64,000 bases of DNA from Rhodoferax sp. (GTDB lineage: Bacteria; Pseudomonadota; Gammaproteobacteria; Burkholderiales; Burkholderiaceae_C). The notes beneath the pieces were generated by a model that was not told the DNA's origin, did no database searches, and worked only from the letters and a program-made list of their open reading frames with translations. The stretch lies in assembly GCA_031291305.1 (NCBI GenBank), contig JARLJH010000014.1:62001-126000 (forward strand), given 5' to 3'. Shown here one piece after another: positions 413 to 57,088 of the stretch (positions within the stretch are counted from its first letter, which is position 1; every line of letters begins with the position of its first letter). A program made the position numbers and the translations under genes.

Positions 413-468
413 AAGGCCTCTAGCCCAGGCAAAATATCCGCATATTGCTTCAGTAAATATAGCAATTA
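413..468 (-). repeat. Short palindromic repeat (AGCT/GGGCTA family), intergenic copy
   Basis: Reverse-strand copy of the dispersed ~50-bp element. The GGGCTAGAGGCC half is well kept; the GATAGCT half has drifted to TTGCTATA. It lies between psuG and the DUF1016 fragment. Confidence 0.5.
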
Positions 469-496
469 AACACCCCGCCAGGCGCTCAACACCCTG

Positions 497-1429
497 CTAC
501 CCCAACGCCAAGTGCTCCCGCGCAATGGCCGCCGCCAGCCGGGCGTTGTTCAACACCAGCTGGATATTCGAGGCCAGGCTGTCGCCGCCAGTCAGTTCAC
601 ACACACGCGCAAGCAGGAAGGGCGTGGACTCCTTGCCGGTGATGCGTTGCTGCTGCGCCTCTTGCAGGGCTTGTTCCACCGCCGCGTCAATGGCGGCGCG
701 CGGCATGGCAAAGGCTTCGGGAATCGGGTTGGCCACCACCAGACCACCCTGCAGGTTCATGGCCCACTTGGCGTGCATCACCTGGGCGATGGCCTGGGCG
801 CTGTCGAGTTGGTAGTCCACCTTGAAGGCGCTGTCGCGGGTGAAAAACGCCGGCAGCCAGGGGGTTTGGTAACCGATCACCGGCACGCCGTGGGTTTCCA
901 GGTATTCCAGCGTCAGACCCAGGTCGAGGATGGACTTGGCCCCGGCACACACCACGGCCACGGGCGTCTGCGCCAGCTCTTGCAAGTCGGCCGACACGTC
1001 AAAGCTCTGTTGCGCCCCACGGTGTACGCCGCCAATGCCGCCGGTGGCAAACACGCGGATGCCGGCCATGGCGGCAATGATCATGGTCGCGGCCACGGTG
1101 GTGGCTCCCGTTGCGCCGCTAGCCACGATGAACGGCAGGTCGCGTCGACTGACCTTGACCACGCTGCGCCCGCTTTGGCCCAGGGTTTCAATCTCTGCGG
1201 CCGTCAGCCCGGCCTTGAGCCTGCCGTTGATGATGGCGATGGTGGCGGGTACCGCCCCATGCGCTCGCACCTCGGCCTCCACCTGCAAGGCGGTGGCCAC
1301 GTTTTGCGGGTATGGCATGCCGTGCGAAATGATGGTGGACTCCAGCGCCACTACGGGGCGGCGCTGTGCCATGGCTTGTGCCACGTCGGGATGGATATCA
1401 AGGTAAGGAGGGGTCATGGTGACACTCAT
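497..1429 (-). CDS. psuG: Pseudouridine-5'-phosphate glycosidase
   Basis: Predicted to split pseudouridine 5'-phosphate reversibly into uracil and ribose 5-phosphate, the second step of pseudouridine breakdown in the cytoplasm. The 310-residue product matches the usual family length (about 310) and has the family block VALESTIISHGMPYPQN, with the active-site Glu at residue 30, followed by INGRLKAGLT and the Gly-rich FATGGIGGVHRG segment. The start is the ATG at 1429, which overlaps the psuK stop as ATGA. A longer in-frame extension upstream would lie inside psuK and is rejected. Gene order psuK-psuG is the standard catabolic pair. Confidence 0.93.
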   Translation of the reverse strand: MSVTMTPPYLDIHPDVAQAMAQRRPVVALESTIISHGMPYPQNVATALQVEAEVRAHGAVPATIAIINGRLKAGLTAAEIETLGQSGRSVVKVSRRDLPFIVASGATGATTVAATMIIAAMAGIRVFATGGIGGVHRGAQQSFDVSADLQELAQTPVAVVCAGAKSILDLGLTLEYLETHGVPVIGYQTPWLPAFFTRDSAFKVDYQLDSAQAIAQVMHAKWAMNLQGGLVVANPIPEAFAMPRAAIDAAVEQALQEAQQQRITGKESTPFLLARVCELTGGDSLASNIQLVLNNARLAAAIAREHLALG

Positions 1430-2361
1430 GGGGCTGCGCTGCGCAGCAGTTGCGAAACAGAAACGACGGACATGCTGGGGTGATTGGCCTGCTCGGCACT
1501 CAGCGTCAGGGCGGCACAGGCCAGCGCAAACGGGATGGATTCCTCCAGGCTTTGATGGCTCACAAAACCGTGCACCAGGCCCGCCATTAGCGCATCGCCA
1601 CCGCCGGTGACATTGACCACCGCAGCAGGCACGGTGCCCTGCCAGCCATGCGCGGCATCTTGGTCGCTCCAGTACACGCCGCGTGCGCCCAGGCTCAGCA
1701 CCAGCTGCTGTACGCCCTGGCCGTGCAGCCACTGCGCTGCACGTTCCACCTCGGCATCAGTTTGCACCGCGAAACCGCACAGCGCCTGGGCTTCCTGCCG
1801 GTTGAGCTTGAGGGTGTGCACCTGATCCAGCCAGGGCAGAACGCGCTGGCATTTGAAGGCCGACACGGCATCCACAAACACCGGCGTAGCGCCCCGGTTG
1901 GCAAACACCCAGGCCAGCGCGTCGGCGCTCAGGTTGCAGTCCACCACCAGCACGGCAGCGTGGCGCACGCGGTCGGCATGAGGGGTCAGGCGCTCGGGCG
2001 TGAGGCACTCCAGGATGCGCATGTCATTCACCGCCACGGCCAAGTCACCCGCGGGGCCGTGCAACGACACATAGGTCGAGGTGGTCTGGCCGGCGAGCAC
2101 CCAGCAACCCTGCACGTCCACACCGGCTTTCTGCGTGGCCTCCAGCAGGCTGCGACCATAGGCATCGTCGCCCACGACCGCCAGCAAGCGGGTATCCACA
2201 CCCAGGCGCGCCAGGTTCTCGGCCACGTTGCGCGCCACGCCGCCTGGGGCGCAGCGAATCACGCCGGGGTTGGAATCGGAGGGTACCACCGCGCGCTCGG
2301 TGGTGGCCGAGATGTCCATGTTGGCACCGCCCAGCACCAGCACAAAGCGCCGTTTAGTCAT
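1426..2361 (-). CDS. psuK: Pseudouridine kinase (PfkB family)
   Basis: Predicted to phosphorylate pseudouridine to the 5'-phosphate used by PsuG. The 311-residue protein has the PfkB layout: an N-terminal GGANMDI start, the glycine-rich PGGVARNVAENLARLG signature near residue 40, and the C-terminal VNVTGGGDALMAGL signature carrying the catalytic Asp. Its stop overlaps the psuG start (ATGA), so the two are translationally coupled. Its own start overlaps the end of the upstream diguanylate cyclase gene by 8 bases, placing three genes in one transcript. The pairing with psuG decides the substrate among PfkB sugar kinases. Confidence 0.9.
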   Translation of the reverse strand: MTKRRFVLVLGGANMDISATTERAVVPSDSNPGVIRCAPGGVARNVAENLARLGVDTRLLAVVGDDAYGRSLLEATQKAGVDVQGCWVLAGQTTSTYVSLHGPAGDLAVAVNDMRILECLTPERLTPHADRVRHAAVLVVDCNLSADALAWVFANRGATPVFVDAVSAFKCQRVLPWLDQVHTLKLNRQEAQALCGFAVQTDAEVERAAQWLHGQGVQQLVLSLGARGVYWSDQDAAHGWQGTVPAAVVNVTGGGDALMAGLVHGFVSHQSLEESIPFALACAALTLSAEQANHPSMSVVSVSQLLRSAAP

Positions 2362-9516: not shown

Positions 9517-11034
9517 TCAGGAACTGCAACTGATCTCGATGTGGCTGGCCCACTCGGGTGGAAAACCGGCCAGCGTCTCAAACGCCGGATGTTCATCATA
9601 GGGGTGTTGCAAGACAGCCAACAAATGGGCCACCGCCGTGAAGTCTTTCTGCCGGGCAGACTCAATGGCTTGCTCTCCCAGGTAGTTGCGCAGGACAAAT
9701 TTGGGATTGACGTTAAGCATCAAATTGGCCTCTAGCCCTTGATCTGACTGCGCAACAAGCTCTGAATAACGCAGCAGCCAGGTGTCGAAATCCGGGCGAC
9801 TGATGAACAGGTCGCGCACCGGCTCATAGCGAGCACTGGCTCGGGCGTGGCTCAGGCGGCGCCAGAAGATGCTGTAGTCCACCCGGTCTTGCGTCAGCAG
9901 CGCCAGTGTGTCGCGGATGAAGTCAGTGAATACCGAATCAGCGGCGCCTGGCGCTGTTGCGTCATCGCTGCTGGTTGGCGGCAGTGTCAGCCCCAGCTTG
10001 GTGAGCATCAGATGCTGGTAGGTCTGGGTGAAACGGGGCTGAAAGGCCTCCAGGGCCTGCTCAGCGAGTGCCGGCCGTCCGATCAGCGGCAGCAGCGCAT
10101 GCGCCAGCGCAAACAGGTTCCAGTGCGCGATCTCGGGCTGCTGGTCAAACGCGTAGCGCCCGCTGCGGTCGGTGTGGTTGCAAATGTGGCCGGGGTCAAA
10201 CGCGTCCATGAAGGCAAACGGCCCGTAATCCATGGTCAGGCCCAGGATGCTCATGTTGTCAGTGTTCATCACGCCGTGGCAAAAGCCCACCGCCTGCCAG
10301 TGCGCCAGCATCACGGCGGTGCGCTCGCTCACTTGTTGCAGCAGGTGAGCGTAGGCATTGCCATCAAACTGCACCGTTTCCCGGCAGTCCGGGTAAAAGT
10401 TGTCGATGACAAAGTCGGCCAGCGTTTTCAGCTCGGCCTGCTGGCCCCGGCTGGCAAAGTGCTCGAAGTGACCAAAGCGAATGAAACTCGGTGCCAAGCG
10501 GGTCACCACGGCGGCGGTTTCCAGCGTCTCGCGTGCGATGGGCTCATCCGAGCCAGTGACGCACAGCGCCCGCGTGGTGGGAATGCCCAGTGCGTGCATG
10601 GCCTCACTGCACAAAAATTCGCGGATGCTGCTGCGCAACACCGCGCGGCCATCGCCCATGCGGGAGTAGGGTGTGAGGCCGGAGCCTTTGAGCTGGATTT
10701 CCCACCCCTGGGCTTCACCCAACAGAATGGCGCGGCCATCGCCCAACTGCCCGGCCCAGCTGCCAAACTGGTGTCCGCTGTAGACGCTGGCCAGTGGCTG
10801 GGTGCCCGAGATCGGCAGGTTGCCGGACAGCGCCTGTAGCAGATCGGGTGAGTCCATCCAGGACGCATCCAGCCCCAACAGCTCGGCCGCGCTCTGGCTG
10901 CGTCCCACCCAATACGGTGCAGGCAGCGGCTGCGGAGCCATTGATGTGTAAAAGCCCGGCCCCAGACGGTGAAAACGGTTGTTCCACGTCAGCGGCGTCT
11001 TGACCAATGGTATGGGGGTGAGTGGCGCATTCAT
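9517..11034 (-). CDS. selO: Protein adenylyltransferase SelO (YdiU)
   Basis: 505 residues from the ATG at 11034; the frame is open further upstream but not family-like. A pseudokinase-fold enzyme that transfers AMP to Ser/Thr/Tyr of target proteins and is linked to oxidative stress. Visible marks are [20 protein letters not shown], the nucleotide loop [20 protein letters not shown], the metal-binding NTDNM and DYGPF segments, and the C-terminal SCSS. In vertebrate SelO a selenocysteine takes the place of this Cys. It heads an operon with msrB, which suits a shared role in redox homeostasis. Confidence 0.94.
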
Positions 11035-11173
11035 GGGTAGCATTGTGGGCTGGCGGGTACAAACCCTGTGCGTGCAGGGGCATCCAACCATGGACCATGG
11101 CCTGCTGATGGCATGCATCGTGGGATGCGATTCAAAGTAAGTGCTTGCTGATAGAAAACCTCCTCTCCGCACG

Positions 11174-11304: not shown

Positions 11305-11336
11305 CTCACCGTGTTGGTCTTGATGAATTTTGTAGA

Positions 11337-11394
11337 GAAACGGCCTCAATCCCTTGTCTGTAAAGGACTAGCAGCTATCAAAAATGTGCATATC
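11337..11394 (-). repeat. Short palindromic repeat (AGCT/GGGCTA family), intergenic copy
   Basis: Reverse-strand copy with a well-kept TTTGATAGCTGCTAG half and a weaker AAGGGATTGAGGCC half. It is placed between the two larger palindromic modules. Confidence 0.65.
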
Positions 11395-14467: not shown

Positions 14468-15721
14468 GTGGATCAAAACAGAGGTTTGTCGGTCACCCAA
14501 CCCGCGAACAGCTTGTCGCGCCTGCTGGTTTGGGGCGGCTACGCGTTGGTGCTGGTGCTGGCGCCGCTGCTGCTGACCAGCAGCCTGAGCCAGTCGCTTC
14601 TGAGCCAGATCGGCATCGCCATCATCGTCTGCCTGAGCTACAACCTGCTGCTGGGCCAGGGCGGCATGGTGAGCTTCGGTCACGCGGTGTATTCGGGCAT
14701 GGGCGCTTTTCTGGCCATGCATACGCTCAACCGGGTCAGCGGCGGCATGCCTTTGCCGGTGAGTCTGGTTCCGCTGGTGGGCGGGCTGGCCAGCGCGCTG
14801 CTGGCGCTGCTGCTGGGCTGGGTCACCACCCGGCGCGCGGGCACATCATTTGCCATGATCACCTTTGGCATGGGTGAGCTGATCTGGGCCGCGGCGTTGG
14901 TCTTGCCGGGCTTTTTTGGCGGCGAGGGTGGTGTCTCGGGCAACCGGGTGGCGGGTAGCGCACCGCTGGGGCTGAGCTTTGGCCCGCAAATCCAGCTTTA
15001 CTACCTGATCGCGGCATACACCTGGGTCTGCACCGCGCTGATGTATGCGCTGACCCGCACGCCGCTGGGGCGCATGCTCAATGCCGTGCGCGACAACCCC
15101 GAGCGTGTGGCTTTCATCGGCTACAACCCGCAGCGGGTGCGTTACATGGTGTTCGTCATTGCGGCCTTTTTTGCCGGGATCGCAGGTGGATTGTCGGCCT
15201 TGAACTATGAAATTGTGAGCAACGAGGTATTCAGCGGCAGTCGCTCCGGCGCTTACTTGCTGTTCACCTTTGTCGGTGGCTCGACCCTGTTTGTCGGACC
15301 CATCATTGGCGCCGTGTTGATGGTGTTGGCATTCGGGCTGCTGCCGGGGCTGACACCGGCCTGGCTGCTGTACCTGGGCGTGATCTTTGTGGGGATGGTG
15401 ATGCTGGCACCCGGTGGCGTGGCGGCGCTGGCGCTGGCTGCGTGGCGGATGGCCGGGCAGGGTACCTGGGCGCGGCAGTGGGCCCCGCGACTACTGATGC
15501 TTGCTGCACTTGTGATAGCTGCCAGCGCATTTGTGACGGGGGTTGAGATGGTTTATCACCTGCAACAAAGCGATGTGTCGGGCCCCATGCTGTCGATGAT
15601 GGGGTTGACGCTGGACACCCGCAGCCCGGTCAGCTGGATTGGCTGCGCCGTGGTGGGAATGTCGGGCCTGGCACTGTGGCTGGCTGGCCAGCGCTGGCTG
15701 GCGCAAGAGGGCCGAGTATGA
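14468..15721 (+). CDS. livM: Branched-chain amino acid-type ABC transporter permease LivM
   Basis: 417 residues. It has the LivM marks GIAIIVCLSYNLLLGQGGMVSFGHAVYSGMGAF, MLNAVRDNPERVAFIGYNPQRVRY and GGSTLFVGPIIGAVL. After the conserved membrane core a 60-residue tail carries one short palindromic repeat (about residues 345-361, VIAASAFVTGVE), so part of the tail may be repeat-derived. The start is a GTG at 14468. The stop overlaps the livG ATG (ATGA). Confidence 0.87.
   Translation: MDQNRGLSVTQPANSLSRLLVWGGYALVLVLAPLLLTSSLSQSLLSQIGIAIIVCLSYNLLLGQGGMVSFGHAVYSGMGAFLAMHTLNRVSGGMPLPVSLVPLVGGLASALLALLLGWVTTRRAGTSFAMITFGMGELIWAAALVLPGFFGGEGGVSGNRVAGSAPLGLSFGPQIQLYYLIAAYTWVCTALMYALTRTPLGRMLNAVRDNPERVAFIGYNPQRVRYMVFVIAAFFAGIAGGLSALNYEIVSNEVFSGSRSGAYLLFTFVGGSTLFVGPIIGAVLMVLAFGLLPGLTPAWLLYLGVIFVGMVMLAPGGVAALALAAWRMAGQGTWARQWAPRLLMLAALVIAASAFVTGVEMVYHLQQSDVSGPMLSMMGLTLDTRSPVSWIGCAVVGMSGLALWLAGQRWLAQEGRV
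15504..15550 (+). repeat. Short palindromic repeat within livM
   Basis: Forward copy inside the livM tail: GTGATAGCTGCCAGC half plus a drifted ACGGGGGTTGAG half. It is read with GCT as an Ala codon, like the other coding copies. The most diverged of the coding copies. Confidence 0.45.
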
Positions 15722-18467: not shown

Positions 18468-20564
18468 ATGACGACAGACTACGCTGTGCAGGGCCCCGTC
18501 GCCGTGCTCACGCTCAACAACCCGCCGGTCAATGGCATGGGGCTCGCCACTCGCGTGGCATTGACCGACGGTCTGGCCCGCGCGCTGGCCGATGAGACCG
18601 TCAAGGCCATCGTGATTACTGGTGCTGGCAAGGCATTCTCGGGTGGGGCCGATATCACCGAATTTGGTTCGCCCAAAGCCTTTGCCGAGCCGAATCTGCT
18701 CAGCGTGATTTTGGCCATTGAGGCATCGACCAAGCCGGTGATCGCCGCTGTTCACACGGTGTGCATGGGGGGCGGGCTGGAGCTGGCGCTGGGCTGTAAT
18801 TACCGCATTGCCGCCCCTGGCTGCAATGTGGCGTTGCCAGAGGTCAAACTCGGTCTGGTGCCCGGTGCCGGTGGCACGCAGCGCCTGCCACGCGCGCTGG
18901 GTGTGGAGCCCGCGCTGAACCTGATCGTTAGCGGCGAGCAGGTCAAGAGCGAACTGCTGGCTATGCTGCCGGGCCAGCAGCTGTTTCAGAAGATTGCAGC
19001 GTCACCCGAGACCCTGATGGCCGAGGCGCTGGTCTTTGCTGCAGAGGTAGCTGATGTGCGCCCATTGCCACAGGTGCGCAAGCTGCCCAGCCGCCACCCG
19101 CAGGGTGATGCTTACTTTCAGTTTGCCCGCAACATGGTCAAGGGCATGGCCAAGAATTTCCCCGCTCCGGTCAAGTGTGTTGACATGGTTGAGGCTTCGA
19201 CCAAAAACAAGTTTGACGACGGCATGGCCCTGGAGCGCGAAACCTTCTTGAACCTGATGTGGACGCCTGAGCACCGCGCACTCAGACACTTGTTTCTGGC
19301 CGAGCGTGCTGCGTCAAAAGTGCCTGATGTCCCCGTCGATACACCACTGCGAGATATCAAATCGGTAGCAATCATCGGCGCGGGAACCATGGGGGGCGGC
19401 ATTGCCATGAACTTCCTGAATGCCGGTGTGCCGGTGAAGATGCTGGAGATGAAGCAAGAGGCGCTGGACCGGGGACTCGCCACCATCCGCAAAAACTACG
19501 AAGCCCAAGTGGCCAAGAAAAAGCTCAAGCAAGACAAGTACGAGCAGCGCATGGCCCTGCTGTCCACCACGCTGAGCTATGACGACCTGACTGATGCCGA
19601 CCTGGTGATCGAGGCGGTGTTTGAAGACATCGGCGTGAAAGAAGCCGTGTTCAAAGAGCTGGACCGCGTGGTGAAACCCGGCGCGATTTTGGCTTCCAAC
19701 ACCTCCACGCTGGACCTGAACAAAATCGCCAGCTTCACCCAGCGTCCGCAAGACGTGGTGGGCCTGCACTTCTTCAGCCCGGCCAATGTGATGAAGCTGC
19801 TGGAAGTGGTGCGCGGCGAGAAAACCGCCAAAGACGTGCTGGCCACCGTGATGAGCCTGGCCAAAAAGATCAAGAAAACCGCCGTGGTGTCGGGCGTGTG
19901 TGACGGCTTCATCGGCAACCGCATGATCGAGCAATACGGCCGTCAAGGCGGTTTCCTGCTGGACGAAGGCTGCACCCCGGCGCAGGTGGACAAGGCCATG
20001 GAAAAATTTGGCATGGCCATGGGACCCTTCCGCATGAGCGACCTGGCTGGCAACGACATTGGCTGGGCCATCCGCAAGCGCCGCTACACCGAGCAGCCCG
20101 ACATGAAATACAGCAAAACCGCCGACCTGCTGTGTGAAAAAGGCCGCTTTGGCCAGAAGACAGGCGCGGGCTGGTATGACTACGTGCCCGGCAAGCGCGA
20201 TGCCATCCCGAATGCTGAAGTGGTCAAAATGATCGAAGACCACCGCGCCGCACTGGGCATCACGCCGCGCAAGATTTCGGACGAAGAAATCGTCCAGCGC
20301 CTGGTGTTCAGCCTGGTCAACGAAGCCGCCCACATTCTGGAAGAAGGCATTGCCAACAAGGCCAGCGACATCGACGTGGTCTACATCTTTGGCTACGGTT
20401 TCCCGGTGTACCGCGGTGGCCCGATGAACTACGCCAACGAAGTCGGCCTGTTCAACGTGGTGCAAGCCATGAAGCGTTTTGCCCAGAACCCGCTGGACGA
20501 TGCCAAGTTCTGGCAGCCTGCGCCGCTGTTGGTCAAGCTCGTGGCCGAGTCCGGTAATTTGTAA
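18468..20564 (+). CDS. fadB: Bifunctional enoyl-CoA hydratase / 3-hydroxyacyl-CoA dehydrogenase
   Basis: 698 residues, alpha subunit of the fatty-acid oxidation complex. An N-terminal crotonase domain (about 1-190) has [11 protein letters not shown] and the oxyanion region [10 protein letters not shown]. The NAD-binding domain starts at about 298 with [18 protein letters not shown] and continues with [10 protein letters not shown] and the catalytic-region [15 protein letters not shown]. Two C-terminal 3HCDH repeats follow ([27 protein letters not shown]). Hydrates trans-enoyl-CoA and oxidises the product. Followed by the thiolase gene. A TetR-like palindrome lies just upstream. Confidence 0.93.
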
Positions 20565-20569
20565 GAAAT

Positions 20570-20622
20570 CCGCTTTTAGCCCAGGTAAATTAAAGGCTAG
20601 TAGCTATCAATTTAATAATTTT
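20570..20622 (-). repeat. Short palindromic repeat between fadB and fadA
   Basis: Reverse-strand copy, both halves well kept: AAATTGATAGCTACTAGCCT and CTGGGCTAAAAGCGG. It lies in the 120-base fadB-fadA spacer. Confidence 0.7.
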
Positions 20623-20684
20623 GCAGGACAAGCCGCAGCCCGATGAAATGGGTCAGCGCTGTCCTCAATACTTTGGAGATCACC

Positions 20685-21860
20685 ATGACATCCGCAGTAA
20701 TCGTTTCCACCGCCCGCACCCCCTTGGCCAAAAGCTGGAAGGGCTCTTTCAACATGACCCACGGGGCCACGCTGGGCGGCCACGCGGTCGAGCACGCCAT
20801 CCAACGTGCAGGCATTGAGGCCGCCGAGGTGGAAGACGTGATCATGGGCTGTGCCCTGCCCGAAGGCGCGACCGGCTCCAACATCGCGCGTCAAATTGCC
20901 TTGCGCGCAGGCTGCCCGGTCAGTGTGTCGGGCATGACGGTCAATCGCTTCTGCTCTTCAGGACTGCAAGCCATTGCGCTGGCTTCCCAACGCATCATCG
21001 CCGGGGAGGGCGACACCTACGTGGCCGGTGGCGTGGAGAGCATCTCCTGCGTGCAGCAAGAACTCAACAAACACATGATCACCGACCCGTGGCTGCTCAA
21101 AAACAAACCAGGGATCTACTGGGACATGCTGCAAACCGCTGAAAACGTCGCTAAGCGCTACAACATCAGCCGCGAAGCCATGGACGAGTACGGCGCCGCC
21201 AGCCAGCAAAAAGCCACTGCGGCGCTGGAAGCCGGTCTGTTCACCGCCGAGATCGCCCCTATCACCGTCACCATGGGCGTGGCTGACAAGGTGATGGGTT
21301 TGACGACCAAAGAAGTGACCGTCAGCCAGGACGAAGGCATCCGCCCCGGCACCACTTACGACGGCATCAAGGGTCTGCGCTCGGCCATGCCCGGTGGCCT
21401 GGTCACTGCCGGCAACGCCAGCCAGTTCTCTGACGGTGCGGGTGCCATGGTGGTGATGGACGAGGTGGTGGCGCAGCGCAAGGGCTTGCAGCCGTTGGGT
21501 CGCTTTTTGGGCTTTGCCGTGGCGGGTTGCGAGCCGGATGAAATGGGCATTGGCCCGGTGTTTGCCATCCCCAAGGTGCTGGGCCGTCTGGGCCTGACGG
21601 TGAACGACATCGACCTGTGGGAACTCAACGAAGCCTTCGCCGTGCAGGTGATCTACTGCCGCGACAAGCTCGGCATTGACAACGCCCGCCTCAACGTCAA
21701 CGGCGGTGCCATCGCGGTGGGCCACCCCTACGGCGTGAGCGGCCAGCGCCTGACCGGCCATGCCCTGATCGAAGGCAAACGCCGCAGTGCCAAGCGCGTG
21801 GCGGTGACCATGTGCATCGGCGGCGGCATGGGGGCTTGCGGGGTGTTTGAAGTCTTGTAA
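20685..21860 (+). CDS. fadA: Acetyl-CoA acyltransferase (3-ketoacyl-CoA thiolase)
   Basis: 391 residues from the ATG at 20685, which follows TTGGAGATCACC. It carries the nucleophile Cys90 in [10 protein letters not shown], the second site [17 protein letters not shown] and the C-terminal catalytic Cys in [12 protein letters not shown]. Cleaves 3-ketoacyl-CoA with CoA, the last step of beta-oxidation. It partners the upstream FadB. Strictly, an acetyl-CoA acetyltransferase is also possible, since both share these motifs. Confidence 0.92.
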
Positions 21861-21861
21861 T

Positions 21862-21907: not shown

Positions 21908-21940
21908 GTGTGTACACCATTGGCACTGGGGCGAATGCTT

Positions 21941-35566: not shown

Positions 35567-35602
35567 ACGTGCAGATGCAGATGTGTTAAAAAGATATATA
35601 AG

Positions 35603-35656: not shown

Positions 35657-35685
35657 TATTCGTCGTCACCTCAGGAAGTAAGAAC

Positions 35686-36702
35686 ATGACCATCAATCAA
35701 CAGATCCTGCTTGACAACCGGCCCACCGGTGAGGCCGTGGCTAGCAACTTCAAGCTGGTCAGCAGCCCGATCCCCGAACTGCGTGACGGCCAGGTCCTGG
35801 TGCGCCACCACTTTCTGAGCCTCGACCCCTACATGCGTGGCCGCATGAACGACAGCAAAAGCTACGCCGCCCCGCAACCTCTGGGTGCCGTGATGATTGG
35901 CGGGACGGTCGGCGAGGTCGCAGAGTCGCGCCACCCACAATTCGTGGTTGGCGACAAGGTGGTGGGCATGGGCGGCTGGCAGGAGTACAGCGTGGTCAAC
36001 GCCGATGAGCCTGGCGCGCTGCGCAAGGTGGACGCCACCCGCATTCCCCTGAGCGCCTACCTGGGTGCCGTGGGCATGCCGGGTGTCACTGCTTGGTATG
36101 GGCTGGTGAAGATCATTGCGCCTGAAGCGGGCGATACGCTGGTGGTGAGTGCCGCCGCCGGTGCCGTGGGAAGTGCATTTGGGGCGCTGGCCAAGGCGCG
36201 CGGCTGTCGCGTGGTGGGTATTGCGGGCGGCCCCGAGAAAAGTGCCTACATCGTCAACGAACTGGGGTTTGATGCCGCCATCGATTACAAGATGCATGGG
36301 GATGCGAGATCGCTGTCGAACGCGATCAAAGAGGCCTGTCCGGATGGTGTGGATGGTTACTTCGAGAATGTGGGCGGTGGGGTGCTCGATGCGGTGATGG
36401 CGCGCATGAACGCATTTGGTCGCATCGCTGTGTGCGGCATGATTGCTGGCTACGACGGAGCACCTCTACCCATGGCAAACCCGGCGCTGATCCTGATCAA
36501 TCGTTTGAAAGTGCAGGGCTTTATCGTCAGCGAGCACATGGACATCTGGCCCGAGGCGCTGAACGAATTGGGCACGCTGGTAGCCACGGGCAAACTGCAC
36601 CCGCGTGAGTCCATCGCACAGGGTATCGCGGCCGCTCCCGAGGCATTTTTGGGGCTGCTCAAAGGCAAGAACTTTGGCAAACAGTTGGTAAAACTATGCT
36701 GA
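35686..36702 (+). CDS. NADP-dependent MDR oxidoreductase (CurA/leukotriene B4 dehydrogenase group)
   Basis: 338 residues, zinc-free medium-chain reductase. Family marks: LSLDPYMRGRMND (about 44-56), the VVGMGGWQEY loop, GMPGVTAWYGL, nucleotide loop VSAAAGAVGSAFGALAK and GYFENVGGGVLDAV. It reduces activated alkenes or ketones with NADPH. Its stop overlaps the GST start by 7 bases. Confidence 0.9.
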   Translation: MTINQQILLDNRPTGEAVASNFKLVSSPIPELRDGQVLVRHHFLSLDPYMRGRMNDSKSYAAPQPLGAVMIGGTVGEVAESRHPQFVVGDKVVGMGGWQEYSVVNADEPGALRKVDATRIPLSAYLGAVGMPGVTAWYGLVKIIAPEAGDTLVVSAAAGAVGSAFGALAKARGCRVVGIAGGPEKSAYIVNELGFDAAIDYKMHGDARSLSNAIKEACPDGVDGYFENVGGGVLDAVMARMNAFGRIAVCGMIAGYDGAPLPMANPALILINRLKVQGFIVSEHMDIWPEALNELGTLVATGKLHPRESIAQGIAAAPEAFLGLLKGKNFGKQLVKLC

Positions 36703-37634
36703 TCCTGCACCACTACCCGATGTCGCCGTTCTCGGAGAAAGTCCGGGCGGTTTTGGGTTTCAAACAACTGGCCTGGCAATCGGTGATCATTCCGACCATC
36801 ATGCCCAAGCCGGACATGCTGGCACTCACGGGCGGCTACCGGAATACGCCGGTGCTGCAAATCGGTGCCGACATCTACTGTGATACCTCGTTAATCTGCG
36901 ATGTGCTGGAGCGGCGTGCGCCCACGCCCAGTTTGTTCCCTGAGGGGGTGAACAGCGCATTGGCGACCATCGTGGCACAGTGGGCTGACAGTGCCCTGTT
37001 TTGGGCTGCCATGGGCTACAACCTGCAAAAGCCGGGGATGGATGAGCTTTTCAGCGGCCTGCCTGCGCAGATGGTCAAGGACTTTGCCGCCGACCGCTCG
37101 GCCATGGCCACTGGCCTGGCGCGTCCGCGCCCACGTGACGCCACGGTGGCCTACCGGGTCTATCTGCAACGTCTGGCATCCATGCTGGATGGTCAGGCTT
37201 TTCTTCTCGGTATGGCGCCTTGCGTGGCTGATTTTGCGGCTTATCACCCGCTGTGGTTCACCCGCAATCAGGTACCAGGCATGGCGTCGATTCTGAATAC
37301 TGTGCCTGTCGTACTGGGTTGGATGGCGCGTATGGAGGCCTTTGGGCATGGTGAAATGAGCCGCCTTAGTGCTTCTGAATCAATAGCTATATGTGCAAGC
37401 TCTGAAAGGGCTATCGGCCAAAATGACTCAGAGTTTCAGGATGATCATGGCATCCCGCTAGGCAGTTTGGTGAGCGTTGCCGCAGAGAGTTTTGGCAGCG
37501 AGCCAACGGTGGGTGTACTGGTGGAGGCGACGCACGACCATTACACGCTTCGCCGCGAGGACGCGCGCGCCGGTGTCGTGCGGGTGCACTTTCCACGCAT
37601 TGGTTATGCGCTCAAACAGGAGGCTTCATCATGA
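36696..37634 (+). CDS. Glutathione S-transferase-like protein with repeat-derived segment
   Basis: 312 residues. N-terminal thioredoxin-fold domain (HHYPMSPFSEKVRAVLGFK; cis-Pro in RNTPVLQIG; then DTSLICDVLE), then an all-helical domain (about 90-220). Residues about 226-243 come from a short palindromic repeat (SIAICASSERAIGQN). The last 70 residues resemble a small separate domain in a variant GST group. Overlaps the MDR gene by 7 and the ElaA gene by 4 bases. Confidence 0.82.
   Translation: MLILHHYPMSPFSEKVRAVLGFKQLAWQSVIIPTIMPKPDMLALTGGYRNTPVLQIGADIYCDTSLICDVLERRAPTPSLFPEGVNSALATIVAQWADSALFWAAMGYNLQKPGMDELFSGLPAQMVKDFAADRSAMATGLARPRPRDATVAYRVYLQRLASMLDGQAFLLGMAPCVADFAAYHPLWFTRNQVPGMASILNTVPVVLGWMARMEAFGHGEMSRLSASESIAICASSERAIGQNDSEFQDDHGIPLGSLVSVAAESFGSEPTVGVLVEATHDHYTLRREDARAGVVRVHFPRIGYALKQEASS
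37375..37426 (+). repeat. Short palindromic repeat within the GST-like gene
   Basis: Forward copy: GAATCAATAGCTATATG half and AAAGGGCTATCGGCCAAAA half. Same codon phase as the other coding copies (AGCT core gives Ala). Confidence 0.75.
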
Positions 37635-45466: not shown

Positions 45467-47938
45467 ATGCAGAAAATCATCGCGCAAATTGCGCAGGAAA
45501 TTCGTGTTCAGGATCGGCAAGTGGCTGCGGCCGTGGAATTGCTCGACGGTGGTGCCACCGTACCGTTTATTGCCCGTTACAGAAAAGAGGCCACCGGTGG
45601 GCTTGATGACATCCAGCTGCGCGAGTTGGAAAGCCGCCTGAGTTATCTGCGCGACTTGCGCGACCGGCTGGCGGCGATCATCAAAAGCATTGAGGAGCAG
45701 GGCAAGATGACCCCGGCGCTGCTCGCCGCCTTGGTGGCCGCGCCGACCAAGCAGGAGTTGGAAGACCTGTACCTGCCCTACAAGCAAAAACGCCGCACCA
45801 AGGGCCAGATCGCCCGCGAGGCGGGCATCGAGCCGCTGGCCGACAAACTGTTTGCCGACCCGGCGCTGGACCCCATGGTCGAGGCCCAAGCCTTCGTCAA
45901 GCCAGAGAAAAATGAGGCTGGTGATGACTTCACCACCGTGCAGGCGGTGCTCGACGGTGTGCGCGACATTCTGAGCGAACGCTGGGCTGAAGACGCCGCA
46001 CTGGTGCAAGACCTGCGCGAATGGCTGTGGGCCGAGGGCTTGTTTCGCAGCAAGTTGATGGACGGCAAGGATGAAAACAATGCCGATGTCGCCAAATTTC
46101 GCGACTATTTTGATTACGATGAACCGATTGGCCGCGTGCCCTCACACCGCGCGCTGGCGGTGTTTCGGGGACGCAGCCTGGAGATTCTGGACGCCAAATT
46201 GGTGCTGCCGGAGCCACCCGAAGCCTTGGCTGGAAAATTTATGCCAAATGGGGCTCTAACCCAAGAAACAACTGGACAATCCGCTACAAAAGGAAGAGCG
46301 ACTCCGGTGGTGACGCTGGCTGAAGGCCGTATCGCCCTCAAGCTCGGCTGGAGCCACAAGGCTCGCCCAGCCGACGACCTGATCCGCAAATGTGTCGCCT
46401 GGACCTGGCGCGTCAAGCTCAGCCTCTCCACCGAGCGCGACCTGTTTGCCCGCCTGCGCGAGGCGTCTGAAGCCGTCGCCATCAAGGTGTTCGCCGACAA
46501 CTTGCGCGACCTGCTGCTGGCGGCCCCTGCCGGGCCGCGCGTGGTGCTGGGGCTGGACCCCGGCATCCGCACCGGCGTGAAAGTGGCGGTGGTCGATGCC
46601 ACCGGCAAGCTGGTTGACACCAGCACCGTTTACCCGCATGAGCCGCGCAAAGACTGGGACGGCTCGCTGCACATTCTGGGCGCGCTGTGCCTCAAGCACG
46701 GCGTGAACCTGATCGCCATCGGCAACGGCACCGCCAGCCGCGAGACCGACAAGCTCGCCGCTGACCTCATTAAATTGATGTCAAAACAGGCCGCAGCCCA
46801 GGAAGGAAGGGGGCAAGTAGCTATTGAAAAGGTAGTCGTGTCGGAAGCTGGTGCCTCCGTCTATTCGGCCAGCGAATTTGCCAGCCAAGAGATGCCCGAC
46901 GTGGACGTGAGCCTGCGCGGTGCCGCCAGCATTGCCCGCCGTCTGCAAGACCCGCTGGCCGAGCTGGTCAAGATCGACCCCAAGAGCATCGGTGTCGGCC
47001 AGTACCAGCATGACGTGAACCAGAGCGAGCTGGCCAAGACGCTGGAAGCCGTGGTGGAAGATTGCGTAAATTCCGTGGGCGTGGACCTGAACATGGCCAG
47101 TGTGCCGCTGTTGAGCCGCGTGTCGGGCCTGAGCAGCAACGTGGCCAAAGCAGTGGTGCGCTGGCGTGAGGCCAACGGCGCTTTTGCCAGCCGCCAGGAT
47201 TTGCTCAAGGTCACCGGCCTGGGGCCAAAGGCCTTTGAACAATGCGCCGGTTTTCTGCGCATTCGTGGCGGCAGCAACCCGCTGGACATGACCGGCGTGC
47301 ATCCCGAAACCTACCCGGTGGTGGAGCAGATCATCGCCAAGACCGGCAAGCCGGTAGCTGAGATCATGGGTCGTGCCGACATGCTCAAAACCCTGCGCCC
47401 GGAGCTGTTTGCCAATGACAAATTCGGGGTCATCACCGTCAAGGATATTTTGGGCGAGCTGGAAAAGCCTGGCCGTGACCCGCGTCCGGACTTCAAGGTG
47501 GCGCGTTTCAACGACGGTGTGGACGACATCCGTGATCTGAAAGAGGGCATGGTGCTCGAAGGCACGGTCAGTAACGTGGCCGCCTTCGGCGCGTTTGTCG
47601 ATCTGGGTGTGCATCAGGACGGCCTGGTGCATGTGAGTCAGTTGGCGCACAAGTTTGTCAACGATGCGCGTGAGGTGGTCAAGACCGGCGATATCGTCAA
47701 GGTGCAGGTGGTGGAGGTGGACGTGGCGCGCAAACGGATCGCGCTGACCATGAAGCTGGGAGCCGCACCGGCGCGCAGCGGCGGAGTGGGTGACAACCGG
47801 TTCCAGGGCGCCAACCCGCAGCAACGCGGGCGCGGCGGTAACTACGGCTCTGGCAGCAACGCCGGGCAGGGGGCGCATGCGCCACAATCGACCGCCATGT
47901 CATCTGCATTTGCCAAGCTCAAAAACATTGGAAACTAG
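45467..47938 (+). CDS. tex: Tex family RNA-binding transcription accessory protein
   Basis: 823 residues, longer than the usual 770-790. N-terminal Tex helices; YqgF/RNase H-like domain from about 358 (VVLGLDPGIRTGVKVAVVDATG); helix-hairpin-helix region from about 535 (NSVGVDLNMASVPLLSRVSGL); S1 RNA-binding domain about 694-765 (GMVLEGTVSNVAAFGAFVDLG); and a Gly/Arg/Asn-rich tail. Two short palindromic repeats add segments at about 257-278 and 435-455 and partly account for the extra length. The second lies inside the YqgF domain. Tex binds nucleic acid and affects transcription. Confidence 0.93.
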   Translation: MQKIIAQIAQEIRVQDRQVAAAVELLDGGATVPFIARYRKEATGGLDDIQLRELESRLSYLRDLRDRLAAIIKSIEEQGKMTPALLAALVAAPTKQELEDLYLPYKQKRRTKGQIAREAGIEPLADKLFADPALDPMVEAQAFVKPEKNEAGDDFTTVQAVLDGVRDILSERWAEDAALVQDLREWLWAEGLFRSKLMDGKDENNADVAKFRDYFDYDEPIGRVPSHRALAVFRGRSLEILDAKLVLPEPPEALAGKFMPNGALTQETTGQSATKGRATPVVTLAEGRIALKLGWSHKARPADDLIRKCVAWTWRVKLSLSTERDLFARLREASEAVAIKVFADNLRDLLLAAPAGPRVVLGLDPGIRTGVKVAVVDATGKLVDTSTVYPHEPRKDWDGSLHILGALCLKHGVNLIAIGNGTASRETDKLAADLIKLMSKQAAAQEGRGQVAIEKVVVSEAGASVYSASEFASQEMPDVDVSLRGAASIARRLQDPLAELVKIDPKSIGVGQYQHDVNQSELAKTLEAVVEDCVNSVGVDLNMASVPLLSRVSGLSSNVAKAVVRWREANGAFASRQDLLKVTGLGPKAFEQCAGFLRIRGGSNPLDMTGVHPETYPVVEQIIAKTGKPVAEIMGRADMLKTLRPELFANDKFGVITVKDILGELEKPGRDPRPDFKVARFNDGVDDIRDLKEGMVLEGTVSNVAAFGAFVDLGVHQDGLVHVSQLAHKFVNDAREVVKTGDIVKVQVVEVDVARKRIALTMKLGAAPARSGGVGDNRFQGANPQQRGRGGNYGSGSNAGQGAHAPQSTAMSSAFAKLKNIGN
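46236..46300 (-). repeat. Short palindromic repeat within tex, first copy
   Basis: Reverse copy encoding GALTQETTGQSATK between PEALAGKF and TPVVTLAEG. Halves: TTTTGTAGCGGATTGTCC and TTGGGTTAGAGCCCCATTTG. Confidence 0.65.
46772..46831 (-). repeat. Short palindromic repeat within tex, second copy
   Basis: Reverse copy encoding QAAAQEGRGQVAIEK. Halves: TTTTCAATAGCTACTTGCCC and CTGGGCTGCGGCCTGTTTTG. Its peptide aligns with that of the first copy (QE-x-x-GQ-x-A), which is expected if both come from one element in one phase. Confidence 0.75.
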
Positions 47939-48808: not shown

Positions 48809-49984
48809 ATGAAGGCGTTGCGCCTCTACGCTGGTCCGAAGGCGCTCGCACATCTGTCGCGCCAGGGCTTGCACAGCCGCGACATTTCCACTATCCCCGC
48901 TGCAGCGGGCGGCCCCAAGGGCCTGATTTTGGGGCCGCTGGACCAGTTTATTTTTGGCCGGTGGTTGCCGCAATCGAACCAGCCTGTGCATTTGGTGGGT
49001 GCCTCCATTGGGGCTTGGCGCATGGCAACGGCCTGCTTGAATGACCCGGTGCAGGCGTTCATGCAATTGGAGCACGACTACATCCAGCAGAACTATGCCT
49101 TGCTGCCCGGAGAAAAACGCCCGGCAGCGGCGCGTGTCAGCGCCTTGTTTGGAGAAAACTTGCAAGCGTTTTATGGTGGCCGGGTGGCCGAGGTGCTGCA
49201 GCACCCGCGTTACCGGTTGCATGTGCTGACCTCGCATGGGCGCGGTCCACTGGCGCGCGAGCATGGCTGGCGCACCGCGCTGGGCTACGGCGGTGCTTTT
49301 TTGAGCAACCTGGTATCGCGCCAGGCGCTGGGCGCCTCGCTGGAGCGGGTGGTGTTTTCCAGCTCGGCACCCGCGTCAGATGGCTCTACCGGGCCAATAA
49401 CACCCTTGCCTTTTGACCCTGCGGACTACCCGACGCGGCAGGTTGGGTTGACTGAGGCGAATTTTCTGCCTGCCATGCAGGCCAGTTGCTCGATACCGTT
49501 TGTGCTGCAGGCGGTGCATGACATTGCCGGTGCGCCTGCGGGCGCTTATTGGGACGGCGGGGTGACCGACTACCACCTGCATCTGGATTGGTTGAAGACG
49601 TCAGATGCTGCACAAAATATAGCTACTATCCCTTTCCATATAAGGGCTACAAGCCAAAATCTCTTGCAAAATCAACCTGCAGTGGTGCTTTATCCGCATT
49701 TCCAGAAAAGTGTTGTGCCGGGTTGGCTCGATAAACACTTGCGCTGGCGTCACCATGCCACGCCGTTTTTGGACAATCTGTTGCTGCTGGCCCCCAGTCC
49801 CGATTGGGTCAAAACCCTGCCCAATGGCAAACTGCCCGATCGCACCGATTTCCTCCACTATGGCGCAGACTTGGCGGGTCGCGTCAACGCTTGGAAGACT
49901 GGTGTGGCAGCCAGTGAACAACTGGCCGCTGAGTTTGATGCCTGGTTGCAGCGACCGGATATGGGTCTTGTTCAGCCGCTGTGA
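48809..49984 (+). CDS. Patatin-like phospholipase-type protein
   Basis: 391 residues. Oxyanion loop AAAGGPKGL (about 32-40), nucleophile elbow VGASIGAWR (GxSxG, Ser about 66) and the Asp of DGGVTDYH (about 248) make up a patatin Ser-Asp dyad. The predicted activity is lipid acyl hydrolysis. Spacing and other regions depart from common patatins. Residues about 268-285 come from a short palindromic repeat (NIATIPFHIRATSQN), placed after the DGG motif. No signal peptide. Convergent with the large GGDEF-EAL gene. Confidence 0.78.
   Translation: MKALRLYAGPKALAHLSRQGLHSRDISTIPAAAGGPKGLILGPLDQFIFGRWLPQSNQPVHLVGASIGAWRMATACLNDPVQAFMQLEHDYIQQNYALLPGEKRPAAARVSALFGENLQAFYGGRVAEVLQHPRYRLHVLTSHGRGPLAREHGWRTALGYGGAFLSNLVSRQALGASLERVVFSSSAPASDGSTGPITPLPFDPADYPTRQVGLTEANFLPAMQASCSIPFVLQAVHDIAGAPAGAYWDGGVTDYHLHLDWLKTSDAAQNIATIPFHIRATSQNLLQNQPAVVLYPHFQKSVVPGWLDKHLRWRHHATPFLDNLLLLAPSPDWVKTLPNGKLPDRTDFLHYGADLAGRVNAWKTGVAASEQLAAEFDAWLQRPDMGLVQPL
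49612..49662 (+). repeat. Short palindromic repeat within the patatin-like gene
   Basis: Forward copy, among the best kept: AAAATATAGCTACTATCCC and ATAAGGGCTACAAGCCAAAA halves with CCCTT/AAGGG pairing. Encodes IATIPFHIRATSQ. Confidence 0.8.
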
Positions 49985-54540: not shown

Positions 54541-54562
54541 TTACCTGAGAGCTGCCAGGTAA
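54541..54562. promoter_or_regulatory. Inverted repeat TTACCTG-N8-CAGGTAA
   Basis: Perfect 7-base arms in the cytochrome c/comEC divergent spacer, 58 bases before comEC. It could be an operator or an RNA hairpin; no matching known consensus comes to mind. A related palindrome CAGGTCACCTG occurs at 53748-53758, past the other end of the cytochrome gene. Confidence 0.45.
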
Positions 54563-54619
54563 TCAACTTAAGTCGAGGCGACCTCATCCATCTGCCGAGC
54601 CGGGCGTTAGCATGGTGAC

Positions 54620-57088
54620 ATGCCCGAGCTTCACCGCTTTCATACCCACACGTCTGCGCTGCGACTGCTCACCCTGACGCCTGCCCTGCTTGGGGTGTTG
54701 GCGGGTAGTGCTCTGCAGCTATATCAGTCGGCTTTGTGGTCAGTCAATTTCTATATGCTTTTTGTGCTTCTAGCCCTTATTTTGTATGGGCTGATAGCTT
54801 CATTCTTTAGAGCATCTGAACGGGCGATGGCAATGGCCAGTCTGCTGGCGTTTACGATGCTGGCGTTTGCTGTTACAGGTTTGCGGGCCAGCGTTTTTGC
54901 CAGCACGGCCTTGAGTCCTGCGCTGGAAGGGCAGAACGTGGTCGTCAGCGGTGTGGTGGCAGGTTTGCCACAACGTTTTGAGGGCGGTGTGCGTTTTCAT
55001 TTTGAGCAGGACTCGGCGTTTCTGAAAGGGCAGGCGGTAACGTTGCCCCACAGGTTGGAACTGGCCTGGTACGCTGGTGTGTTTGGGCAGAGTGATGCTG
55101 ACGGCGATCCGACAGGTGAACTGCAGCGCACGCCAGCGCCGGTGCAGGCCGACGAGCGCTGGCAGTTCACGGTGCGCCTGAAGGCGCCGCACGGTGGCAT
55201 CAACCCCCATGGCTTTGACTATGAGTTGATGCAGTGGGAGCAGGGCGTGCAAGCGGGTGGCTATGTGCGCGCGGGTCGCCAGGACCCGCCGCCGCAACGT
55301 CTGGACATCACCTGGCAGCACCCGGTCGATGGAGCACGCCAGCAGGTGCGCGAGCGCATTTTTGCCAGTGTGGCAGACCCACACGCTGCCGGGCTGATTG
55401 CCGCCCTGGTCACCGGCGACCAGGGCGCCATCGAACGCGCTGACTGGGATGTGTTTCGGGCCACAGGCGTGGCCCACCTGATGAGCATCTCGGGCTTACA
55501 TATCACGATGTTTGCTTGGTTGGCCGCTGGGTTGGTGGGGTGGCTTTGGCGGCGCTCGCAACGCTTATGTCTGTGGTTACCAGCGCCCAGCGCGGCATTG
55601 ATCGGCGGTGTGCTGCTGGCGGCGGCCTATGCCCTGTTCAGCGGCTGGGGCGTGCCAGCGCAGCGCACCGTGCTGATGCTGCTGACCGTGGGCGCGCTGC
55701 GGCTGGCGGGAGTGCGCTGGCCCTGGCCGCAGGTGTGGTTGCTGGCCTGCGCGGTGGTGGTGGCGCTGGACCCGTGGGCGTTGCTGCAGGCCGGGTTCTG
55801 GCTGAGCTTTGTCGCGGTGGGGGTTTTGTTTGCTTCAGATTCAGGAGCTGTCAGCCAAGACGATAAAAGGGCCAGAGCCAGATTCGTTCATATGTTTCGG
55901 GAGCAGTGGGTGATCACGCTGGCGCTCACACCCTTGACCCTGTTGTTGTTTGGCCAAGTCTCGTTGGTGGGCTTACTGGCCAATGCGCTGGCGATTCCCA
56001 CGGTGACGCTGGTGGTGACACCGCTGGCCATGCTGGGGACGGTGCTGCCGGGTTTGTGGACGCTGGCCACCTGGGTGATTGGCCTGCTGAGCGCCGTGTT
56101 GCAGTGGTTGGCCGCCTGGCCGTGGGCGGTATGGTGGGTAGCGCAGGCGCCCTGGTGGGCCGGTGCTGTGGGTGTGCTCGGCGGTGTGTTGTTGGCCATG
56201 CGCTTGCCATGGAGCCTGCGTTTGACCGGTGTACCGATGCTGTTGCCGGTGCTGCTGTGGCAGGTGCCTCAGCCGCCAGAGGGTCAGTTTGAACTGCTGG
56301 CGGCCGACATCGGGCAAGGCAACGCGGTGTTGGTGCGAACCCGGCACCATGCGTTGCAGTACGACGCGGGTCCACGTTTTAGCAGCGAGAGTGACGCCGG
56401 TCAGCGCGTGCTGGTGCCGCTGCTGCGTGCGCTGGGCGTGCGGCTCGATACCGTTGTACTAAGTCACCGCGACAGCGATCATGTCGGTGGCGCGCCAGCG
56501 GTGTTGATGATGCAGCCGCAGGCACAGTTGATCAGCTCTATCGAGCGCGACAACACCTTGCAGATGTTGCGCCCGGCGATGCGCTGCATGGCGGGCCAGC
56601 GCTGGCGCTGGGATGGCGTGGACTTCGAGATGCTGCACCCGCAAGCTGGGGACTATGAGCAGATCAAGAAAACCAACGCCATGAGCTGTGTGCTGCGTAT
56701 CTCCAATGGCCAGCAGACGGCCTTGCTGGTGGGTGACATCGAGCAGCTGCAAGAAGCTCAACTGGTGCAGGCGCTAGCCCCGGCCGTGCTGCGCGCCGAC
56801 GTGTTGCTGGTGCCGCACCATGGCAGCAAGTCATCAAGCAGCGCGCTGTTCCTGGATGCGGTGCAGCCGCGTATCGCGCTGATCCAGGCGGGCTATCGAA
56901 ACCGCTACGGGCATCCGTATGGCCCTGTTTTGGTGCGTTATCAGGTGAGCGGTGCCAGGGTGGTGGATTCGCCCCATTGCGGGGCGGAAACCTGGCAATC
57001 CTGGGACTCTGGCTCGGTGCAATGCCAAAGGGTGCTTGATCTGCGGTATTGGCACCATCAGATGGCGGATGTTGCCGCAACACCTTAG
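54620..57088 (+). CDS. comEC: DNA internalization-related competence protein ComEC/Rec2
   Basis: 822 residues. N-terminal helices and OB-like DUF4131 region (about 1-200), Competence channel domain (about 225-510: LVTGDQGAIERADWDVFRATGVAHLMSISGLHITMFA in pieces) and a C-terminal metallo-beta-lactamase domain (about 555-800) with DIGQGNAVLVR, SHRDSDHVGG and VPHHGSKSSSS. Carries single-stranded DNA across the inner membrane during transformation. Two short palindromic repeats lie inside (about residues 44-63 and 403-423), the first within a membrane helix. Confidence 0.92.
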   Translation: MPELHRFHTHTSALRLLTLTPALLGVLAGSALQLYQSALWSVNFYMLFVLLALILYGLIASFFRASERAMAMASLLAFTMLAFAVTGLRASVFASTALSPALEGQNVVVSGVVAGLPQRFEGGVRFHFEQDSAFLKGQAVTLPHRLELAWYAGVFGQSDADGDPTGELQRTPAPVQADERWQFTVRLKAPHGGINPHGFDYELMQWEQGVQAGGYVRAGRQDPPPQRLDITWQHPVDGARQQVRERIFASVADPHAAGLIAALVTGDQGAIERADWDVFRATGVAHLMSISGLHITMFAWLAAGLVGWLWRRSQRLCLWLPAPSAALIGGVLLAAAYALFSGWGVPAQRTVLMLLTVGALRLAGVRWPWPQVWLLACAVVVALDPWALLQAGFWLSFVAVGVLFASDSGAVSQDDKRARARFVHMFREQWVITLALTPLTLLLFGQVSLVGLLANALAIPTVTLVVTPLAMLGTVLPGLWTLATWVIGLLSAVLQWLAAWPWAVWWVAQAPWWAGAVGVLGGVLLAMRLPWSLRLTGVPMLLPVLLWQVPQPPEGQFELLAADIGQGNAVLVRTRHHALQYDAGPRFSSESDAGQRVLVPLLRALGVRLDTVVLSHRDSDHVGGAPAVLMMQPQAQLISSIERDNTLQMLRPAMRCMAGQRWRWDGVDFEMLHPQAGDYEQIKKTNAMSCVLRISNGQQTALLVGDIEQLQEAQLVQALAPAVLRADVLLVPHHGSKSSSSALFLDAVQPRIALIQAGYRNRYGHPYGPVLVRYQVSGARVVDSPHCGAETWQSWDSGSVQCQRVLDLRYWHHQMADVAATP
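54751..54810 (-). repeat. Short palindromic repeat within comEC, first copy
   Basis: Reverse copy encoding VLLALILYGLIASFF, which works as part of a membrane helix. Halves: GAATGAAGCTATCAGCCC and AATAAGGGCTAGAAGCACAA. Confidence 0.65.
55829..55888 (+). repeat. Short palindromic repeat within comEC, second copy
   Basis: Forward copy encoding DSGAVSQDDKRARARF in a loop of the Competence domain. Halves: TCAGGAGCTGTCAGCC and AAAAGGGCCAGAGCCAGATT. Confidence 0.65.

Follow-up and report, generated by a model that had tools for sequence, protein, structure and literature searches.

The uptake signal sequences (USSs) of the Pasteurellaceae consist of a 9-bp core plus flanks, and the Rickettsia palindromic elements are palindromic repeats that are read in frame in housekeeping genes and lengthen the protein by insertion. 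Here we describe a palindromic motif of about 67 bp that is dispersed through the genome of a Rhodoferax sp., and that we followed from a 64-kb stretch of its DNA (assembly GCA_031291305.1, contig JARLJH010000014.1, positions 62,001 to 126,000; "the window", whose own numbering is used for window positions). The available text of one study describes the DNA uptake sequences (DUSs) of the Neisseriaceae as about 10 nt long, present in many copies within and between genes, located in permissive places of the core genome, conserved, and gained by recombination (PMC2397512); that of another reports that DUS dialects follow clades (PMC3630211). Like DUSs and USSs, the present motif occurs in many copies in and between genes on both strands, lies in permissive places of core genes and has lineage dialects. 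Unlike them, it is about 67 bp long, has a dyad core and belongs to another family, and a role for it in uptake is putative.

The motif is abundant in its genome and patchily present among relatives. It occurs in genome-wide dialects, copies at orthologous sites agree with the dialect of their genome, and at most sites tested no whole unit was inserted. The dialects, together with their agreement at orthologous sites, suggest that a reader acts in trans and that copies are maintained where they stand. Our favored reading, to which we assign a probability of roughly 0.4, is that the motif is a sequence-specific recognition site kept genome-wide via such a reader, with molecular drive of the uptake-signal kind as the likeliest process.

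The original prediction for the window was an imperfect palindrome of about 50 bp in fifteen copies. The information profile around the ATAGCT core of 40 copies, taken from the window and from same-genome stretches, rises at about -13 and ends at about +50, which gives a longer unit of about 64-67 bp. These copies were chosen via the core, as were those used for the covariance model and the matrix, and the conservation of the core is therefore inflated. Thirty-six same-genome copies align without gaps over 67 columns, with the approximate consensus TRCTAY..AAT..ATAGCTRCTAGCCCTTT....ATAAGGGCTAGAGGCCAATTT..CATATAA. The layout is a dyad core with 13-column arms, flanked by AT-rich ends that have a TRCTAY box on the left and an ATTT box on the right. 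Mean GC content is 38.6% in the 36 copies, compared with 59% for the window.

An ungapped 67-column matrix built from these 36 copies identified 14 window copies scoring at least 21 bits, about one per 5 kb. Random sequence of the same base composition (300 kb, one strand) scored at most 9.2, and the reversed window had zero matches at 5 bits or more. Genome-wide, the pattern ATAGCTRCTAGC with at most one mismatch had 138 matches (65 forward, 73 reverse) versus 30 for the pattern read backwards, and the covariance model found at least 150 copies, 149 of those at E ≤3e-5. Thus a dispersed imperfect palindrome does exist, and both the window and the genome scan place it far above what base composition predicts. 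Extrapolating from 14 copies per 64 kb would give about 1,100 copies in this genome; the total is probably about a thousand sites. The 14 window copies, with their matrix scores and the open reading frames (ORFs) concerned, are as follows.

400-466, reverse strand: copy outside genes, score 35, 31 bp from the stop end of the ORF at 497-1732 (reverse strand); left half degenerate.
9712-9778, reverse strand: copy in selO (ORF 9517-11172, reverse strand), score 39; AGCT not in the Ala phase; no added residues relative to the SelO of 6eac.
11327-11393, reverse strand: intergenic copy, score 56.
15500-15566, forward strand: copy in a livM-like permease (ORF 14468-15721; PF02653), score 27.
20556-20622, reverse strand: copy overlapping the stop codon of the ORF at 18468-20564, score 73.
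21850-21916, forward strand: weak copy overlapping the stop codon of the ORF at 20643-21860, score 21.
23961-24027, forward strand: copy in acyl-CoA dehydrogenase (ORF 22236-24110), score 47; compared by alignment.
35593-35659, reverse strand: intergenic copy, 27 bp past the ORF at 35048-35566, score 73.
37368-37434, forward strand: copy in a GST-domain protein (ORF 36696-37634), score 33; compared by alignment.
46236-46302, reverse strand: copy at tex site 1, in a loop of variable length, score 31; compared with orthologues.
46773-46839, reverse strand: copy at tex site 2, adding 21 nt, the remainder being conserved host codons, score 44; compared with orthologues.
49604-49670, forward strand: copy in a patatin-like protein (ORF 48809-49984), score 71; compared by alignment.
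54750-54816, reverse strand: copy at comEC site a, score 39; compared with orthologues.
55829-55895, forward strand: copy at comEC site b, in the Competence domain (PF03772, residues 263-529 against profile positions 1-267), score 25.

The count of fifteen became 14: the sites at 35603 and 35616 are a single copy (35593-35659), the selO copy had been overlooked, and the listed site at 25278 was rejected as a copy, having no matrix match. The eight copies predicted to be coding (livM, acyl-CoA dehydrogenase, GST, two in tex, patatin and two in comEC) are indeed coding, but with selO they number nine, leaving five rather than seven outside ORFs. Two of these five overlap a stop codon (at 2 of the 48 window ORFs), while two others are 27 and 31 bp away from a stop. 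Placement was judged with a hand list of 48 ORFs that cover 92% of the window; with 9 of 14 copies inside them, the copies are therefore enriched outside genes, yet mostly genic. All coding copies had been said to read AGCT as an Ala codon, the other phases being blocked by stops. This reading was found in 21 of the 23 copies classed as coding (61 were classified), the exceptions being the selO copy and one in locus L028; the criterion for this class misses the GST copy, though that copy is in the Ala phase. The argument from stops applies to four of the six consensus frames, which have stops across the core, but the other two are open there, one of them with stops in the weakly conserved ends.

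Next to the supposed palindrome at 25278, window positions 25214-25258 are 87% identical to 23523-23567 in the acyl-CoA dehydrogenase gene but include a stop codon. This segment looks like the remnant of a second acyl-CoA dehydrogenase copy.

A structured RNA element was considered and rejected: RNAalifold predicted zero pairs for the motif, and the window had no Rfam match at the gathering score. Pairing of the arms was weak when compared with 500 shuffles, of which 5 were as high in paired cells, 18 in covariation score and 249 in double changes. An excess of covariation between the arms in two pooled genomes (77 observed versus 50.5 expected) was set aside as a between-genome difference. 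A replication-polarised motif was likewise rejected, as the top 150 copies found on the complete chromosome G010, which has at least 150, showed no orientation skew (55 of 200 permutations were as extreme).

Variable presence among relatives, which the original prediction named as support, was borne out. When 60 genomes of the genus were searched at E ≤0.001, 24 had 30 or more matches (motif-rich genomes, up to at least 86 per genome), 6 had 5-16, and 30 had fewer than 5 (motif-poor genomes, 13 of them with none). The highest copy numbers are lower bounds, and the genomes are single ones, some of them incomplete. In the family sample (E ≤1e-4), matches were found in 53 of 200 genomes and 42 of 141 genera, and 0 of 16 genomes from other families of the order matched at 0.01. 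Around tex, 12 of 80 named loci had a matrix score of at least 18, in scans that abandon poor starts early and may miss weak copies; these loci included Polaromonas, Rhodoferax bucti, Comamonas, Extensimonas and a metagenome-assembled genome (MAG) of Acidovorax. The named sequences closest in tex are from Comamonadaceae or Burkholderiales MAGs, followed by Hylemonella and others. Motif-poor genomes are spread over several parts of the tex tree, as if upkeep of the motif had been lost more than once.

Next, we compared eight of the nine window coding copies (all but livM), and one copy outside the window in an M20 peptidase gene, with orthologues or solved relatives. If the motif were a selfish insertion like the Rickettsia palindromic elements, as originally predicted, then each host protein would gain about the whole unit. 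The comEC site b segment has 47 residues in each of the 13 motif-bearing orthologues and in 11 of the 17 that lack the motif, the other six being longer. At comEC site a, the length was 38 residues in 11 of 15 with the motif (others 40-47) and in 10 of 15 without it (others 37-40). The filled rows in these comEC comparisons, and in those for tex, were selected by the motif itself. At the GST site, 24 relatives without the motif differ in length by about -1 to +4 residues, one being much shorter, and the closer ones have similar residues there. SelO has three residues fewer at the motif than Pseudomonas syringae SelO (6eac alignment), and the acyl-CoA dehydrogenase is 1-4 residues longer than 14 relatives in its alignment. 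Relatives with less than 0.45 identity or less than 0.8 of the query length were excluded from the patatin, GST and acyl-CoA dehydrogenase alignments.

Length gains were seen at three other sites. The tex site 2 segment measures 84 nt in 15 genomes and 63 nt in 15 others, a difference of 21 nt, and the tex site 1 loop has 32-47 residues with the motif versus 27-39 without it. In the M20 peptidase, the motif occurs in 8 of 30 rows, seven with 44 residues and one with 47; among the 19 rows without it (three rows do not cover the site), nine have 36 residues and three are as long as the filled ones (44, 47 and 47), and the gain over the commonest allele is about 24 nt. Only the patatin-like protein gains about a whole unit, its loop having 40 residues in the window versus 15-22 in short-loop relatives (about 19-24 longer); longer loops bearing the motif are also found in R. 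bucti, in locus L062 and in three Polaromonas loci. The similar in-frame peptides and the longer patatin and tex site 1 loops are what a selfish element that adds peptide to proteins would produce. However, most sites tested gain nothing (comEC site b, GST, SelO) or far less than the repeat (21 nt at tex site 2, about 24 nt in M20), and a parasite of this kind is hardly credible here. The predicted clean insertion boundaries were not what the orthologue alignments gave: since the gain is small or zero at most sites, host codons usually supply part or all of the unit.

At tex site 1, other loci hold different repeat-like peptides (PELVEGGASTSSARTG in L036, SPSPSGGGPGWG... in L071), as though a single permissive loop served several repeat families. 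Low-scoring motif-like sequence was found at this site (L151, L159) and at comEC site b (L187, L196) in genomes G053 and G052, which have 12 and 57 genome-wide matches, as expected of motif decay.

We then asked how the DNA of these coding sites varies, using codon identity among equal residues and grouping genomes by genome-wide count rather than by the motif at the site. In motif-rich genomes, codon identity was 0.667 at comEC site a and 0.674 at comEC site b, versus 0.507 elsewhere in the gene, with 0 of 246 and 0 of 230 windows of the gene as high; at tex site 1 it was 0.771 versus 0.603 elsewhere, with 1 of 249 windows as high. In motif-poor genomes, each of the four tex and comEC sites had lower codon identity than the remainder of its gene. 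Third-position A+T content at the four sites was 0.59-0.72 in rich genomes versus 0.26-0.38 in poor ones, and 0.22-0.25 elsewhere in the genes. Where each site was redrawn synonymously from its own gene in 30 orthologues, p was below 0.001 in 20, 15, 16 and 16 of them (tex sites 1 and 2, comEC sites a and b); a few more genomes had p of 0.001-0.05 and the others ranged up to 0.85. At tex site 2, the first conserved V of VV(V/I)SEAG is encoded by GTA in 12 of 15 longer alleles versus 1 of 15 shorter ones. In conclusion, the motif is conserved as DNA at three of the four sites in the two genes (comEC sites a and b, tex site 1).

The motif is written in one of two genome-wide dialects, CTAGCCC or CTAGCGC. 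The ratio of exact CCC to CGC patterns was 41:4 in G070, 74:8 in G040, 42:6 in G004 and 40:21 in G000, the four CCC-majority genomes, and 41:49 in G047, 24:50 in G005, 2:13 in G041, 4:124 in G014, 0:190 in G010 and 0:279 in G023; control patterns had 0-4 matches per strand. At arm pair 12-26, C-G was found in 50 of 68 sampled copies from G000 and never G-C, while G-C was found in 27 of 40 from G010 and never C-G. The mixed usage of G000, G005 and G047 looks like dialect switches in progress.

Fifty-four copies were detected at the four tex and comEC sites. The diagnostic letter was C in all 14 from the CCC-majority genomes; in the other genomes it was G in 31 of 40, C in 6 and another letter in 3, the six C copies coming from the mixed genomes G047 (2) and G005 (1) and from G002 (2) and G008 (1). 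Midpoint rooting of the tex tree makes G000 the sister of G041 and places G005 in a group with G004, G070 and G040. The letter at tex site 2 is G in G041 and G005 and C in G000, G004, G070 and G040; therefore, either C arose twice or G returned twice, each time matching the usage of the genome. The change alters the protein, the codon being GCG (Ala) in CGC-type copies and GGG (Gly) in CCC-type copies. That copies at orthologous sites follow the dialect of their genome is not expected of dead insertions, or of fresh spread lineage by lineage, which would not rewrite existing copies.

Two explanations other than uptake would also yield dialects. The first is concerted evolution, in which ectopic gene conversion evens out an old, functionless repeat family genome by genome. 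It would account for dialects and for replacement at constant length; however, conversion tracts would need to be short, sparing the frame and conserved host residues, and the near-absence of the motif from 30 of the 60 genus genomes (fewer than 5 matches each) is left unexplained. We consider this account improbable. Second, the motif may bind a protein of the nucleoid or of chromosome organisation and be kept site by site through ordinary selection; conservation at the DNA level, a trans-acting reader and dialects would all follow. Under such selection, probably about a thousand sites would have to be kept, some of them altering amino acids of core proteins, as in the Ala/Gly change at tex site 2. 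Furthermore, the motif is absent from several lineages, and its copies in G010 have no orientation pattern. We consider a site of this kind unlikely, if less so than gene conversion.

Under the favored reading of an uptake-signal-like site, a putative trans-acting reader would recognise the roughly 67-bp site, and competent cells would preferentially take up DNA of their own kind that carries a good site and then recombine it into the chromosome. Sites would accumulate where the sequence tolerates them, namely at gene ends, in intergenic DNA and in permissive protein loops, and would shift together once the specificity of the reader shifts.

Several points weigh against this reading. The reader, its role in DNA uptake and the action of drive rather than ordinary selection are inferred, as are a receptor, uptake and competence in these genomes. 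The agreement of dialects at orthologous sites (Fisher p 3e-8) comes mostly from one clade, and this p-value therefore overstates independence. Length was gained at the patatin, tex site 1 and M20 sites. In motif-rich genomes, codon identity was not raised at tex site 2 (0.634, with 79 of 249 windows as high), and the M20 site was not conserved synonymously (151 of 153 windows as high); at both sites several rich genomes are without the motif. comEC was found in 58 of the 60 genus genomes, rich or poor, but the motif-rich G062 is one of the two without a match, and the comEC matches of the motif-rich G013 (L185) and G060 (L180) contain a stop codon; motif-rich genomes may thus lack a whole ComEC, unless the assemblies are at fault. 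In addition, 67 bp is far longer than known uptake sequences, and the motif is associated with a transposase gene, which fits a rival explanation described below.

If the uptake-signal-like reading is pursued, then the family, whose nearest named relatives are Comamonadaceae, may have its own means of self-recognition by a long dyad-symmetric signal. Tentatively, this would be an uptake-signal system outside the Neisseriaceae and Pasteurellaceae, with mixed-dialect switches and with changes to core proteins that include ComEC, the channel for DNA uptake. A literature search, mostly of papers open without subscription, found nothing linking a palindromic element or an uptake sequence with Comamonadaceae, and one combining DNA uptake sequence with Burkholderiales returned, in the text that was accessible, only work on meningococcal mutants. 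When letter strings of the motif were searched, only the two shortest of five occurred, and no title on a bacterial repeat was among the matches listed. Nothing relevant came from PMC2755013, whose available text on the subject concerns CRISPR only, or from PMC12616744. Were the uptake reading true, self-recognising DNA exchange would extend to a further family, known here mostly from environmental genomes, and selection versus molecular drive would become testable on the mixed-dialect genomes. Whatever the reader, it is unusual for a DNA motif to shape conserved proteins in many locations and to differ between genomes by a single letter. This also calls for caution, since the DNA, rather than protein function, may dictate unusual peptide segments in such proteins.

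The remaining explanation is a repeat of the repetitive extragenic palindrome (REP) or miniature inverted-repeat transposable element (MITE) type, moved or maintained by a transposase, with some in-frame copies tolerated. The candidate enzyme is the REP-associated tyrosine transposase (RAYT) of these genomes. In the available text of PMC3733652, REPs are 20-40 bp long, are named for being extragenic and mostly have GTAG or CGTC at one end. A palindrome, a high copy number and patchy presence fit such a repeat. The Y1-transposase domain (PF01797) was found in all 24 motif-rich genomes and in 29 of the 36 others (53 of 60), and a gene that is RAYT-like by length and score occurs in 23 of the 24 rich genomes, G008 being the exception; one of these, in G010, passes the NCBIfam RAYT cut-off (84.3 versus 80). 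Moreover, among the genomes examined the motif overlaps the RAYT stop codon, at the 3' end of the gene, in 13 of 15 that are rich and in 0 of 4 that are poor; G062 has a further copy immediately upstream of the gene.

RAYT-like genes are, however, present in many motif-poor genomes too, and stop-codon overlap is a usual place for the motif, as the window ORFs attest. In 12 of the 13 genomes the opposite end of the RAYT gene lacked any copy scoring at least 14 bits, and both sides were occupied only in G062. The sequence that is constant beside RAYT is not the motif but TGTCCC...TCTGACCCC, which lies downstream of the RAYT-like gene in all 19 genomes examined, whether motif-rich or motif-poor (regions L267-L286), with GGGGTCAGA before the gene in 4 of 19. 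TGTCCC...TCTGACCCC is itself rare in the sampled DNA of the Rhodoferax genome (1 site in 269 kb); not being abundant, it cannot be called the REP of this RAYT, and the argument it offers against RAYT is therefore weak. Unlike a REP, the motif is 67 bp long and lies mostly in ORFs (9 of 14 window copies), so that it is not extragenic. CTAC (GTAG on the other strand) is at its left end, where the consensus is TRCTAY, in 5 of 36 and 17 of 108 copies. Coding sites that were not inserted, and orthologous sites that agree in dialect, are unexpected of plain transposition. On balance, a RAYT-driven repeat is rather unlikely, although it comes ahead of the nucleoid-protein site.

The beta-proteobacterial repeat element, BRE, is a dispersed repeat for which the available text of Hot et al. 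2011 (PMC3110155) lists Polaromonas, Rhodoferax, Acidovorax and Bordetella. As far as that text goes, some BRE copies lie in coding sequence, as some copies of the present motif do; in Bordetella they are 75-91 bp long, 69% GC and often in tandem, with at most 29 found per genome. With its 38.6% GC, its single copies and its far greater number, the motif was told apart from BRE as described there by composition, arrangement and number, and the identity was set aside. Elsewhere in the window, a direct repeat of 157 nt with 72% identity joins positions 24242-24398 and 27874-28030.

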